DNA of 64,000 nt, from contig NZ_CP160849.1 of assembly GCF_040790665.1 (NCBI RefSeq), positions 1,389,501 to 1,453,500 on the forward strand. Direction: 5' to 3'. Below, one piece after another: positions 19,953 to 24,870 of the stretch. The stretch's first letter is position 1; each line of letters starts with the position of its first letter. The translations under genes and the position numbers were made by a program. Under the pieces are notes generated by a model, which did no database searches, was not told the origin of the DNA, and worked only from the letters and a program-made list of their open reading frames with translations. The DNA is from Sulfitobacter pontiacus. Lineage in GTDB: Bacteria; Pseudomonadota; Alphaproteobacteria; Rhodobacterales; Rhodobacteraceae.

Positions 19953-21311
19953 TCACCTTGGGACGTTCGTCGTCTTGGGCAGGCGCAAGACGGCGGCAAA
20001 ACCGCGCGGGCTCAGTTCTCGGGGTACGTAAATTTCAAGTTGGCATCCGGACTGGGCGCATAGATCTTGTATGATCGACAGTCCCAGCCCGTATCCATCT
20101 GACAGCGCGCCACGTCGGTTGAACCGCTGCTTTATGCGGTCGAGGTCCGCGGGTGAGAGAGGGGCGCAATCGTTCACGACGGCAACTCTCCCCGATTGGC
20201 TGGCGTCTACAACCGTGGGCAAAGGGCCGCTAGCGTGCTTCAGGGCGTTGTCGAACATATTGTTCAGGATGATCCCAAGGGCATCCGGATCAACGCGCGT
20301 TGAAAAATGAGTTTCGGGAAACTTCAATTCGATCTTTTCCGGGGCGCGGCTTCGGCTGCGCATCTCGGACATCAAAAGCGTGATCACCGGGGAAACATCC
20401 GTCGCGACCGCATTGAGGCCCAGTCCTGATTGCGCCCTTGATAATTGCAATAGGCGCTCGATCAAGCGCTCAAGCCGCTTCAGACCTGTTTCGATTTCGA
20501 CGATATTGTCGATCTTTGCGGGGTCGCTCAGCTTTGCCCGCAGCCGCTGCGCCTGCGCCAGACAAATGGCAACGGGGGTGCGCAATTCATGCGCGGCATT
20601 CGTGGCAAAGGCACGTTCTGCGGTGATGGCGCGGTCAAGTCGCCCCATGAGCCCGTCAAGCGTATCAATCGCCGGGGTTATTTCGGAAAAGACATTCTCG
20701 CGTTCAATCGGGGAAAGGTTGTGTTCGTTCTTTTCTGCGATGTTCCGGCTGAGCTCGGCAATCATCGCGACTGATCGTCGAACCGCCCAGAAGGAGGATA
20801 ACGCAAATAGCGCCCCCAACAGGCCAAAACCGATCGCCACAGCGATCACCACATCGGTTATCGCCTCATTGCGTTCCACCATCGGCTCGGCCACCACGAC
20901 GCTGCCCGTCTCGGGCTGATCTGAACGGAGCATGATAAAGCGATGCCCGGCGGCGGTGCTTAGCCCGGTGGCCAATGGCGTGGGAAGCGCAAAAGTACCA
21001 ACGCTTTTTGACTGCGCGTAGACCTGACCATCCGGATCCAGATACCACATCAACGCGCGTTCATCCGGCTTACGCAGTTTGCTTTCAAAATCCAGCAAGC
21101 CGCCCACGTCAAAGCCCGCGTCGCCTTGGGCCGTTTCGATGAACTCCACCAAGAGATGCGCCTTGCCAATCAGGCTGGCATCAAGCAGCTCGTCATACTC
21201 GTCCTTGAAGATATGCTGGACGATCAAAACGCCAATCACCATCACCGCCAGCCCGGGCACAAGCAGCGACCCAAGCAGCGATTGAACCAGACTTTTGTGG
21301 CGGCGTGTCAT
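19953..21311 (-). CDS. Sensor histidine kinase, PmrB/QseC-like
   Basis: A 452-residue membrane kinase. Helices lie near residues 10-32 and 152-175, with a periplasmic domain of about 120 residues between them, then a HAMP-like linker. The phosphoacceptor is H241 in A-A-H-E-L-R-T-P; the N box is N-N-M-F-D-N-A (350-356) and the G box G-Y-G-L-G-L-S. Its start overlaps the stop of the response regulator by four bases. The genetic setting (eptA and dgkA just upstream on the same strand) suggests it senses envelope stress such as cationic peptides or metal ions, like PmrB. The stimulus is inferred only. Confidence 0.88.
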   Translation of the reverse strand: MTRRHKSLVQSLLGSLLVPGLAVMVIGVLIVQHIFKDEYDELLDASLIGKAHLLVEFIETAQGDAGFDVGGLLDFESKLRKPDERALMWYLDPDGQVYAQSKSVGTFALPTPLATGLSTAAGHRFIMLRSDQPETGSVVVAEPMVERNEAITDVVIAVAIGFGLLGALFALSSFWAVRRSVAMIAELSRNIAEKNEHNLSPIERENVFSEITPAIDTLDGLMGRLDRAITAERAFATNAAHELRTPVAICLAQAQRLRAKLSDPAKIDNIVEIETGLKRLERLIERLLQLSRAQSGLGLNAVATDVSPVITLLMSEMRSRSRAPEKIELKFPETHFSTRVDPDALGIILNNMFDNALKHASGPLPTVVDASQSGRVAVVNDCAPLSPADLDRIKQRFNRRGALSDGYGLGLSIIQDLCAQSGCQLEIYVPRELSPRGFAAVLRLPKTTNVPR

Positions 21312-21964
21312 GACGTCAAGGCGTAGCCTAAACCACGGTGCGTGGCGATAAGGTCTTTGCCTAATTTCGTGCGCAAACGGCTGATATGTGCCTCGATCGC
21401 GTTGCTTTCGACTTCTTCGCCGTAGTCATAGATGGCAGCTTCAAGGCTCTCCTTCGGCACGATCTGGGGTTTGCGGCGCAGTAGCGTTTCGAAGACGCCC
21501 CATTCCTTAGCGGTCAGACGTACGGGCTGTTCAGCGCGCATGACGGTGTGATCGGACAGATTGACCACCACATCGTGCAGCTGAACCGTTTGGGCAAACT
21601 GGTTGGCGCTGCGTCGACAGACGGTATGGATGCGCGCTTTGACCTCATCAAGGTCAAAAGGCTTGATCACATAGTCATCAGCCCCCCTGTTCAACCCCTC
21701 TATCCGGTCCGACACCTTGTCGCGGGCAGTGAGAATGAGGATCGGCGTGCGTATGGCCTTTGCCCGCAGTTTGCTTAAAAAATCCAACCCGTCGCCATCA
21801 GGCAACTGCAGGTCCAGAAGTACCACATCATAGGATAGCGTACGCAGCGCGGCGTCTGCCTCGTCCAGGGTGCAGAACCATTCGACAATGTGACGATCCG
21901 CCTCCAGATGCTCTTTCAGCGGCCGCGCCAAAGCTTTTTCATCCTCGATCAAGAGTATGCGCAT
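21308..21964 (-). CDS. OmpR/PhoB-family response regulator, PmrA-like
   Basis: A 218-residue regulator. The receiver domain has the acidic pair E7-D8, the phosphoacceptor D51 (V-V-L-L-D-L-Q-L-P-D-G), T79 and K101. The C-terminal part (about 125-218) is a winged helix typical of OmpR/PhoB, ending H-R-G-L-G-Y. The next gene, its kinase, overlaps by ATGA. It follows dgkA by 112 bases, so it may be transcribed with eptA-dgkA or from its own promoter. The direct repeat at 24184-24203 is a candidate binding site. Confidence 0.9.
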   Translation of the reverse strand: MRILLIEDEKALARPLKEHLEADRHIVEWFCTLDEADAALRTLSYDVVLLDLQLPDGDGLDFLSKLRAKAIRTPILILTARDKVSDRIEGLNRGADDYVIKPFDLDEVKARIHTVCRRSANQFAQTVQLHDVVVNLSDHTVMRAEQPVRLTAKEWGVFETLLRRKPQIVPKESLEAAIYDYGEEVESNAIEAHISRLRTKLGKDLIATHRGLGYALTS

Positions 21965-22076: not shown

Positions 22077-22478
22077 TCAGGCCATCCCGAAATAGCGCAA
22101 AGCGACCACAGCCATGAAAAAACCGTTCGCGAAAAGCAAACACATGGTCGCGAGCGAACCAAGGTCCTTGGCGTCACGAGCGAAAACCTCCCACTGTGGA
22201 GCGAGGTGGTCGACGATACATTCGATCGCCGTATTCAGAGCCTCGACCGCGACAAGCGCCGAAAAGAGGACCAGAAAGACCAGAAAATCAGCGACACCCG
22301 CATCCATGATGTAGAGCAGAACACTACCGATTGGCAGCGCCACAATGATATGCCTGAACGCGGTTTCCATCCAAAGACGTCGCAGCCCGCCAATCGAATA
22401 GCCCGCAGCGGCAAACAGATGGGCGACCCCCGTAACGCGTTCGGGTTTCTCAAGCGGTTTGATAATTTCCGGCTTCAT
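22077..22478 (-). CDS. dgkA: Diacylglycerol kinase, DgkA family
   Basis: A 133-residue inner-membrane enzyme that phosphorylates diacylglycerol to phosphatidate. It has the three hydrophobic helices of prokaryotic DgkA and the conserved E-A-L-N-T-A-I-E run that holds catalytic residues. Its start overlaps the eptA stop by four bases. The pairing is chemically sensible: the phosphoethanolamine transferase takes its head group from phosphatidylethanolamine and leaves diacylglycerol, which DgkA returns to phospholipid synthesis. It is slightly longer than E. coli DgkA (about 122 residues). Confidence 0.93.
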   Translation of the reverse strand: MKPEIIKPLEKPERVTGVAHLFAAAGYSIGGLRRLWMETAFRHIIVALPIGSVLLYIMDAGVADFLVFLVLFSALVAVEALNTAIECIVDHLAPQWEVFARDAKDLGSLATMCLLFANGFFMAVVALRYFGMA

Positions 22479-24139
22479 ATCTTGGCCACCTCAGTATTTG
22501 TTTTGCAGGAAGCGAAGATATCCAGATCGGGGTTACGCTCTGCAGTGTTGATGTCGAGCATCCCAATTAGGGAATGGAACAGATTGTCGTGTGACAGCGG
22601 CTTGTCCTTCTGTTCCGCCACACAGCTTTCATCGATGCCAAAGCGGGTTCGGAATGCGTCTGACATCCATAGGAGCATCGGGACATGGGTCTGCGTGTCC
22701 GGGGCCATGAAATAGGGTGCCCCGTGCAAATACAGCCCGCGTTCGCCAAGCGATTCACCGTGGTCGGACACATAAAGCAGTGACGTGGCCAAAGCTTCAT
22801 TCGCGGCAAGCATTTTTATCGTCTGGGCAAGTATCTGATCTGTATAGGCGATGGTGTTATCATAGGCATTGGTGATCTCCTGCGGGGTGCATTTCTTGAA
22901 CTCCGCCGTACGGCATGCGGGTGTGAAGCGTTCAAATGCCGCGGGATAGCGCTGATAATAGGTCGGCCCGTGACTGCCGATCTGGTGCAGAACCAGGACC
23001 GTGTCCTGCTTGATCGATGCGATGTAGTCTTTCAACGGCTCAAGGAATATGCCGTCGATACATTCTCCCGTTGCACAGAACTCCGGGTCGGTCAGATCGT
23101 TGAACCTGCGCGTCTTGAACCGTGCGGCAATCGCTTTGTCGCCGGTGTTATTGTCCCACCATTCGACCTGCAGCCCGGCATGCCCGAAGACATCTAGCAC
23201 ATTCTCGGTCGAGGTGCTTTTTTCAAAGCTGTAGTCATCTCGGCTGTATTTTGAGAACATACAAGGCAGTGACACCGCCGTGGCAGTGCCACAGGACTGG
23301 GTATTGCTGAAGTTGATAATTGGCAGCTTGGACAGCTCTGGGTTCGTGTCGACGCCGTATCCGTTCAAGCTGAAATTCTGGGCCCGCGCGGTTTCCCCCG
23401 CAACGACAACGGTCAGCATAGGCTTTTGCGGCGCGTCATAGGCAGAACCGCCCCTTGCATTCGTTCCGGTGCTGGTGAGGACCAGATTGGCCGAACGCGA
23501 CATCATCTTGGCGTAACGGATCGCGCCTACCAACGGGGCACCGGGCTGGTAGCTGCTCATGAAATCCTTCCGCTCGCGCAGGATCGACGCATAGGATTTC
23601 AGGTCTGACATCAGCAATCCTGCGGCCAATGCAAGGCTGACAACAAAGGTCACTATCGGCGTTACAGCCGCCCTGATCCGCGTCTGGGGTCGAATGGGCA
23701 CCCACATCACGATGAGCGCGGGCAACACGCCGAAGACAATAATATGGGTGATGTAGCCAGGTGTTATCAGATGCCGGGATTCCGCGACGGTGGTCACCAT
23801 GACATTTTGGATCATGTCGCGGTCAACGATAACGCCAAGTGTATCGACGTAATAAGACGTCATGGCGGCCAGTATGAGCATCGAGATCAGAAACGGTTTA
23901 ACCGTCCACGGATATGCGAACAGGCTGAAGGCGGCCAACGTCAAACAGAACACAGCCCCCATAAAGCCCGCGAGCGACAATAGGTGGCCCGAGAAGACAT
24001 CCCTTGAGATGTCCCAGAATGTGCTATTATCGACACTGAACACGAATGCGATGGAAAGAACGGTCAGCAGCACGGGGGAGATGCTTATCCGTTCACGCAG
24101 AACGGCTAGCCGGGATAAAAGGGTCTTCACAGAGGCCAT
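22475..24139 (-). CDS. eptA: Lipid A phosphoethanolamine transferase, EptA/MCR family
   Basis: A 554-residue inner-membrane enzyme that adds phosphoethanolamine to lipid A. Five hydrophobic helices lie in residues 22-175, followed by a periplasmic alkaline-phosphatase-like domain. The catalytic motif is V-V-A-G-E-T, with metal ligand E249 and nucleophile T250; D459-H460 and H485 (T-H-V-P) match further metal-site positions. Several cysteines in the periplasmic domain fit the disulfides of the family. The family is known to confer polymyxin resistance. It is the first gene of an operon with dgkA and a two-component system. It is chromosomal here, with no mobile element nearby. Confidence 0.94.
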   Translation of the reverse strand: MASVKTLLSRLAVLRERISISPVLLTVLSIAFVFSVDNSTFWDISRDVFSGHLLSLAGFMGAVFCLTLAAFSLFAYPWTVKPFLISMLILAAMTSYYVDTLGVIVDRDMIQNVMVTTVAESRHLITPGYITHIIVFGVLPALIVMWVPIRPQTRIRAAVTPIVTFVVSLALAAGLLMSDLKSYASILRERKDFMSSYQPGAPLVGAIRYAKMMSRSANLVLTSTGTNARGGSAYDAPQKPMLTVVVAGETARAQNFSLNGYGVDTNPELSKLPIINFSNTQSCGTATAVSLPCMFSKYSRDDYSFEKSTSTENVLDVFGHAGLQVEWWDNNTGDKAIAARFKTRRFNDLTDPEFCATGECIDGIFLEPLKDYIASIKQDTVLVLHQIGSHGPTYYQRYPAAFERFTPACRTAEFKKCTPQEITNAYDNTIAYTDQILAQTIKMLAANEALATSLLYVSDHGESLGERGLYLHGAPYFMAPDTQTHVPMLLWMSDAFRTRFGIDESCVAEQKDKPLSHDNLFHSLIGMLDINTAERNPDLDIFASCKTNTEVAKI

Positions 24140-24179
24140 AATAGAGCTTTCGCAGATTTAGATGCGTGCTCATGACCAG

Positions 24180-24203
24180 CGTAAGCTTACGAAAAGCTTA
24201 CGA
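24180..24203. promoter_or_regulatory. PmrA-box-like direct repeat between eptA and the DUF998 gene
   Basis: AGCTTACGA occurs at 24184-24192 and again at 24195-24203, an exact 9-base direct repeat with an 11-base period; the core reads CTTACG-N5-CTTACG. The first copy is also part of the 12-bp palindrome CGTAAGCTTACG (24180-24191). OmpR-type regulators of the PmrA group are known to bind two direct hexamers (CTTAAT-like) spaced by 5. The site lies 41 bases from the eptA start and 35 bases from the DUF998 gene start, so it could serve both divergent genes. Confidence 0.6.
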
Positions 24204-24237: not shown

Positions 24238-24870
24238 ATGGAGAACGAAATCGGCGACGCAGCAGTTCGAGAAAGGCCCGGGCTCGTGCGCCTCCTTGCG
24301 TGGTACGCGATATTTGGCTGCATCTTGTTTTCGGGGATGATCCTGATCGCGGATTTTGTTGTTCCGGACCACGACTGGATCGCCGACACCATCAGCGATC
24401 TTGGCGCGGGTGAATATGAATATATTGTCGATATCGGCATCTATGGGTTTTCGGCTTCACTGATATCTGTCGCTTTACTTGCCGCGCATATTCATCTGGG
24501 CAATTGGCGCTGGAGCGTCGGGATCGTGGGCTTCACCGTCTTGGGGCTGATTGTCTTCCTTGTTGGCGCGCGGAATGAATACGGCGACAACGACAGCGAT
24601 GGCGTCGTGATCCATAGCTACCTGGTCTATGCTCTTGGCCTTCTTATGGCGATCTTGCCGTGGTCCATGTCAGAAGGGGCGCGCTGCTGCGGTGCGATAT
24701 ACGGCAGAATTCTTGTCGGTCTCTCCGCGCTCTGGACCGTCTCGGCCCCGGTCTTTTTCATGCTACCCACCGATGTCGACGGTCTTTACGAACGGTATCT
24801 TGGTGTGATTGCGATGGCGACGGTGATCACTCTGGCGACGTTGTTTCTGCGCCGGCAGGGGCGCGGATAG
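24238..24870 (+). CDS. DUF998-type membrane protein
   Basis: A 210-residue integral membrane protein with about six hydrophobic segments. The segment H-D-W-I-A-D-T-I-S-D-L-G-A-G near residue 45 fits the DUF998 group, for which I know no proven reaction. The frame is open upstream to 24166, but the ATG at 24238 follows an AAAAGGTAA ribosome-binding-like stretch and places the repeat at 24184-24203 in the promoter. It diverges from the lipid A modifying operon, so it may be a further envelope gene of the same regulon; that is inference. Confidence 0.7.
   Translation: MENEIGDAAVRERPGLVRLLAWYAIFGCILFSGMILIADFVVPDHDWIADTISDLGAGEYEYIVDIGIYGFSASLISVALLAAHIHLGNWRWSVGIVGFTVLGLIVFLVGARNEYGDNDSDGVVIHSYLVYALGLLMAILPWSMSEGARCCGAIYGRILVGLSALWTVSAPVFFMLPTDVDGLYERYLGVIAMATVITLATLFLRRQGRG

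Follow-up and report, generated by a model that had tools for sequence, protein, structure and literature searches.

A conserved direct repeat upstream of the eptA operon of Sulfitobacter pontiacus as a putative variant of the PmrA-type operator

The 64,000-nt stretch of the Sulfitobacter pontiacus genome analysed in this work (hereafter, the window) contains four genes on the minus strand in the order eptA, dgkA, a response regulator and a sensor histidine kinase. The eptA gene (22475–24139) encodes a lipid A phosphoethanolamine transferase with the EptA_B_N and Sulfatase domains (567 bits against NF028537, cut-off 500), and its end is overlapped by 4 nt by dgkA (22077–22478), which encodes a diacylglycerol kinase (PF01219, E-value 5.5e-16). 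After a gap of 112 nt, dgkA is followed by the gene for an OmpR/PhoB-type response regulator (21308–21964; hereafter RR), whose nearest models are PmrA and QseB, and by an overlapping gene for a QseC/PmrB-like histidine kinase (19953–21311; HK). On the opposite strand, a divergent gene (24238–24870) encodes a membrane protein of the Pfam family DUF998 with six long predicted helices. The start of eptA at 24139 and that of the DUF998 gene at 24238 are separated by a gap of 98 nt, where scans for sigma-70 promoters and terminators gave no match and no clear -35 or -10 elements are seen.

Within this gap, the segment at 24180–24203 (CGTAAGCTTACGAAAAGCTTACGA) contains the repeat core CTTACG-N5-CTTACG at 24186–24202. 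A previous sequence-only reading described an exact 9-base direct repeat with an 11-base period, overlapping a 12-bp palindrome. The repeat, its core and its period are indeed present, as is the palindrome (CGTAAGCTTACG, 24180–24191), whereas the exact repeat is 10 nt rather than 9 nt long (AAGCTTACGA, copies at 24183–24192 and 24194–24203); the segment also contains a 9-bp inverted repeat with arms at 24180–24188 and 24194–24202. By its own sequence alone, the repeat is mildly unusual, and its significance comes from its conservation. The bare repeat is unconvincing because an exact 10-mer repeat arises in 0.9% of 20,000 dinucleotide shuffles of the 98-nt gap; any hexamer repeated at a period of 11 is found in 2.4% of the shuffles. 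Whole-genome pattern matching revealed a single exact occurrence of the 20-nt form CGTAAGSTTNNCGTAAGSTT in the 3.55-Mb genome, at this locus, and no second site within two mismatches. The only other exact CTTACG-N5-CTTACG (C2:95019) satisfies the extended pattern only with four mismatches and overlaps an ORF of 425 aa in L184, and was rejected as a candidate.

A close eptA gene is present in 23 of the 62 genomes compared within the genus. Several of these genomes encode DUF998 proteins identical to those of named Sulfitobacter species, which points to Sulfitobacter as the probable genus. The 12-letter box core, CGTAAG twice, is exact in 17 of these 23 eptA promoters, and the other six are degenerate to a varying degree. 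Across the 23 aligned upstream regions, TAAG(G/C)TT occurs twice with an 11-nt period and both units are invariant or nearly so, giving the element CGTAAGgTT-N2-CGTAAGgTT as read on the eptA strand. The end of the box lies 44–47 nt from the eptA start in almost all of the 23 genomes (three deviate or have a less certain start). Such fixed-position conservation across many genomes can be taken to exclude a chance origin. For eptA, the absence of the repeat from orthologous intergenic regions, which would have counted against the sequence-only reading, is thus not observed: the repeat is present at a fixed distance both in the genus and in other genera (see below). Outside eptA promoters, matches within two mismatches in the 62 genomes are about as numerous as those of a reversed control pattern, so we claim no wider regulon; it seems to comprise just one operon, in a simpler arrangement than that of the enteric regulon.

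In the window, the candidate operator of the eptA operon, CGTAAGCTT-TT-CGTAAGCTT, occupies 24183–24202 of the minus strand at a conserved distance of 46 nt from the eptA start, and its core half-sites CGTAAG (24202–24197 and 24191–24186) are separated by 5 nt. The sequence-only reading took the core to point toward the DUF998 gene. This orientation is probably reversed, because the genus consensus agrees with the E. coli eptA box at 13 of 17 positions, compared with 9 of 17 when read the other way round. The hexamer alone is not decisive, and the conservation outside the repeat is all on the eptA side: the information content is close to zero upstream of the box, i.e., on the DUF998 side in the window, and high over about 20 nt downstream, toward eptA. 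This conserved flank includes TG(G/A)T(C/G)A directly downstream of the box (TGGTCA at 24173–24178, minus strand), with T, G and A invariant in the 23 promoters, which may be a promoter part or a third contact. A candidate eptA -10 region, TCTAAA (24157–24162, minus strand), falls in the A-rich alignment columns +40 to +44, is weak and is not firmly assigned. The 12-bp palindrome is shared by only two of the 23 promoters (the window and L091) and is not a conserved feature; it arises secondarily, from the second half-site of this particular genome.

The enteric PmrA (BasR) box of eptA and arn promoters has the consensus (C/T)TTAA(G/T)-N5-(C/T)TTAA(G/T), and the E. coli K-12 eptA box, CTTAAG-GTTGG-CTTAAT, ends 46 nt from the eptA start, the same distance as in the window. 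Both elements are composed of two direct half-sites of the TTAAG/GTAAG type with an 11-nt period and an inner GTT upstream of eptA, and in both systems eptA shares an operon with the regulator. The geometry of two direct hexamers 5 nt apart is found in the window and most of its relatives, as is the location upstream of eptA with conserved orthologous sites. However, only 10 of the 12 half-site positions fit the PmrA consensus: the second base of CGTAAG is G instead of T in both halves and throughout the genus. Other differences from the enteric system are the presence of dgkA in the operon and the number of sites: each genome has only one that is strong, while PmrA additionally controls arn/pbgP and further genes.

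A similar mixture of likeness and difference is observed for the regulator. RR combines the OmpR/PhoB receiver and winged-helix domains, and its gene shares an operon with eptA and the gene for a PmrB-like kinase. Its top match among 96 models is the NCBIfam PmrA model NF007928 (213 bits, under the cut-off of 330), followed by QseB, and the nearest solved structure, by best PDB match, is E. coli BasR. The base-reading residues in the recognition helix of Klebsiella pneumoniae PmrA are His193, His195 and Asn196 (PMC3973317). The corresponding helix of RR, EAHISRLR, retains His193, while His195 is replaced by Ser and Asn196 by Arg in all genus orthologues; two of the three residues compared also differ from BasR. 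Since the half-site consensus, the score cut-off of the PmrA equivalog model and two recognition-helix residues are not matched, we classify the box as a probable variant of the PmrA-type eptA operator. Among other known systems, CarRS of Vibrio vulnificus is likewise a two-component system controlling a dgkA and eptA operon and its own genes (PMC10433830), but the reported CarR motif is GACA-N6-TACA and carRS form a separate operon. The QseB and QseC models are the second-best for RR and the best for HK, respectively, but the reported QseB site, G(C/T)(G/A)ACAAT(A/T)A-N4-TT, is unlike the window box.

The profile built on the genus was then applied to 26 eptA upstream regions from other genera of the family, giving a combined p-value of 5e-12 and 12 regions with p <=0.02. 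Ten of these 12 contain eptA-strand sites located 35–56 nt from the start; another eptA-strand site lies 93 nt from the start (L217), and one at 130 nt (L211) is probably due to chance. The sites in other genera drift to TCAG/TAAG halves, and among the more distant eptA genes, roughly one in two lacks a recognizable box. In one genome of another genus (G198), the box was found 43 nt upstream of an RR-HK gene pair. In another genome (G152; L191, G152:C1:155691), it lies between an RR-HK pair and a divergently oriented gene for an ArnT-like protein with the PMT_2 glycosyltransferase domain, a possible second type of target. Four eptA upstream regions of other genera (L207, L208, L211 and L221) contain, in place of the direct repeat, an inverted repeat of the GTAAGC-N-GCTTAC type, possibly the site of another regulator.

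The presence of the box correlates with that of the operon regulator. An RR orthologue is encoded in 18 of the 62 genus genomes, all of them among the 23 with eptA, and 16 of these 18 have an exact box core, vs one of the five eptA genomes without RR (Fisher p 0.008, ignoring shared ancestry). One genome (G056) has RR and a degenerate box. The link of a PmrA-box-like operator to eptA and to the same-strand OmpR-type regulator, proposed in the sequence-only reading, is to this extent upheld by conservation and co-occurrence. The one exact case among the five is G028 (L178, G028:C46:800000-815000), which combines an exact box with an internally deleted eptA and a truncated RR; its eptA operon appears to have been caught in decay. 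It is nevertheless conceivable, albeit improbable, that the box serves as an eptA operator but for a different regulator of the OmpR family, encoded elsewhere. Four of the five eptA genomes without an orthologous RR retain eptA together with a degraded box, whose first half-site is GATAAG or TATAAG (L073, L074, L085 and L077 in G033, G027, G036 and G042), and hold only an RR paralogue of 48–50% identity elsewhere in the genome. However, the core decays in exactly these four genomes and is retained where the operon RR is present, and in other genera the box is found upstream of the RR-HK genes themselves. Both observations favour the RR of the operon as the proposed ligand of the box.

The sequence-only reading also proposed that the box is common to eptA and the DUF998 gene, which would place the latter in the polymyxin-response regulon. 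The two divergent genes do share the 98-nt gap, and, owing to the palindrome, the window genome also has an imperfect box in mirrored orientation, directed toward the DUF998 gene, CGTAAG-CTTAC-GAAAAG (24180–24196, plus strand), which is located 41 nt from its ATG, fits the 20-nt pattern with three mismatches and agrees with the PmrA consensus at 8 of 12 positions. This mirrored box is the sole remaining sequence basis for DUF998 control. Against it, DUF998 genes occur in 33 of the 62 genus genomes and adjoin eptA only in the window genome; eptA was seen neither beside the other genus copies (1.5-kb flanks, where fetched) nor around 69 DUF998 relatives from named genomes (6 kb on either side, where the contig allows). 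The genus-built box profile gave no signal in the upstream regions of 98 other DUF998 genes (combined p 0.70); the repeat is absent there, in disagreement with the sequence-only reading, and eptA promoters show no conservation in the part of the gap facing DUF998. In a tree of 99 proteins, the window DUF998 groups with copies from Paracoccus, a Sulfitobacter MAG and Pseudosulfitobacter (support 100/99) and belongs to a lineage other than that of the copies from G031 and G012, the closest eptA relatives; therefore, it seems to have been relocated or acquired separately. Given this pattern, a single PmrA-type box serving both genes is unlikely, and the window DUF998 gene appears to be a recent chance neighbour of eptA, a bystander whose membership in the regulon is not demonstrated. 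We assign a still lower probability to a scenario confined to one species, in which the relocated DUF998 gene has been captured by an eptA operator turned bidirectional, the second half-site having given rise to the 12-bp palindrome and hence to the mirrored box at 41 nt.

The DUF998 family has features of its own. The predicted structure of the window protein is a confident six-helix bundle (pLDDT 87) with no fold match among solved structures at E <=0.001, and many charged residues are invariant (e.g., R112, N113, E114 and D117), suggesting an active or binding site. Of the 98 DUF998 upstream regions, 22 (e.g., L020, L021, L029 and L030) contain the motif GGAAC-N15-18-CGTT, which resembles a general stress promoter of the EcfG type, vs 0.35 expected from shuffles, a comparison that ignores relatedness. 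The motif suggests that DUF998 genes normally belong to a stress-sigma regulon. The window copy lacks this motif.

Finally, it is extremely improbable that the repeat is a chance occurrence, given its fixed-position conservation in many genomes, or a hairpin or terminator-like element formed by the 9-bp inverted repeat. Single-stranded folding of the gap scores well in the window (z -4.2), but the relatives retain the direct repeat and not the inverted one. Of six relatives folded, not one reaches beyond z -2, and the values of four lie close to zero or above it. The terminator scan of the gap gave no match.

Altogether, the repeat is very probably a PmrA-type operator of the eptA-dgkA-RR-HK operon with a shifted half-site, bound by the RR of this operon, and the DUF998 gene is probably not its evolved target. 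In the proposed mechanism, HK would phosphorylate RR, and the phosphorylated RR would bind as a head-to-tail (tandem) dimer to the two CGTAAG(G/C)TT half-sites, which are spaced by one helical turn, by analogy with PmrA, for which tandem-dimer binding and the half-site geometry are known (PMC3973317; for the geometry, also PMC10729948). The half-sites would lie upstream of the eptA -35 region or overlap it, and the binding of RR would activate eptA-dgkA and, via read-through, the RR and HK genes. Lipid A would then receive phosphoethanolamine, and the diacylglycerol released in this reaction would be recycled by DgkA. The role of dgkA is cited in PMC10285318, and a PmrAB-like system in an operon with eptA is already well known (PMC10285318). 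The DUF998 gene would have come to the operator separately.

We found no description of a PmrA-type box in Rhodobacterales among the top search results in the open-access literature. The DUF998 gene can be dropped from the candidate polymyxin-response genes, and the conserved box provides a testable operator sequence for the control of eptA in marine Rhodobacterales. Comparison with the enteric box suggests that the half-site has changed together with the recognition helix of RR, while the period, the inner GTT and the distance to the promoter have remained unchanged.
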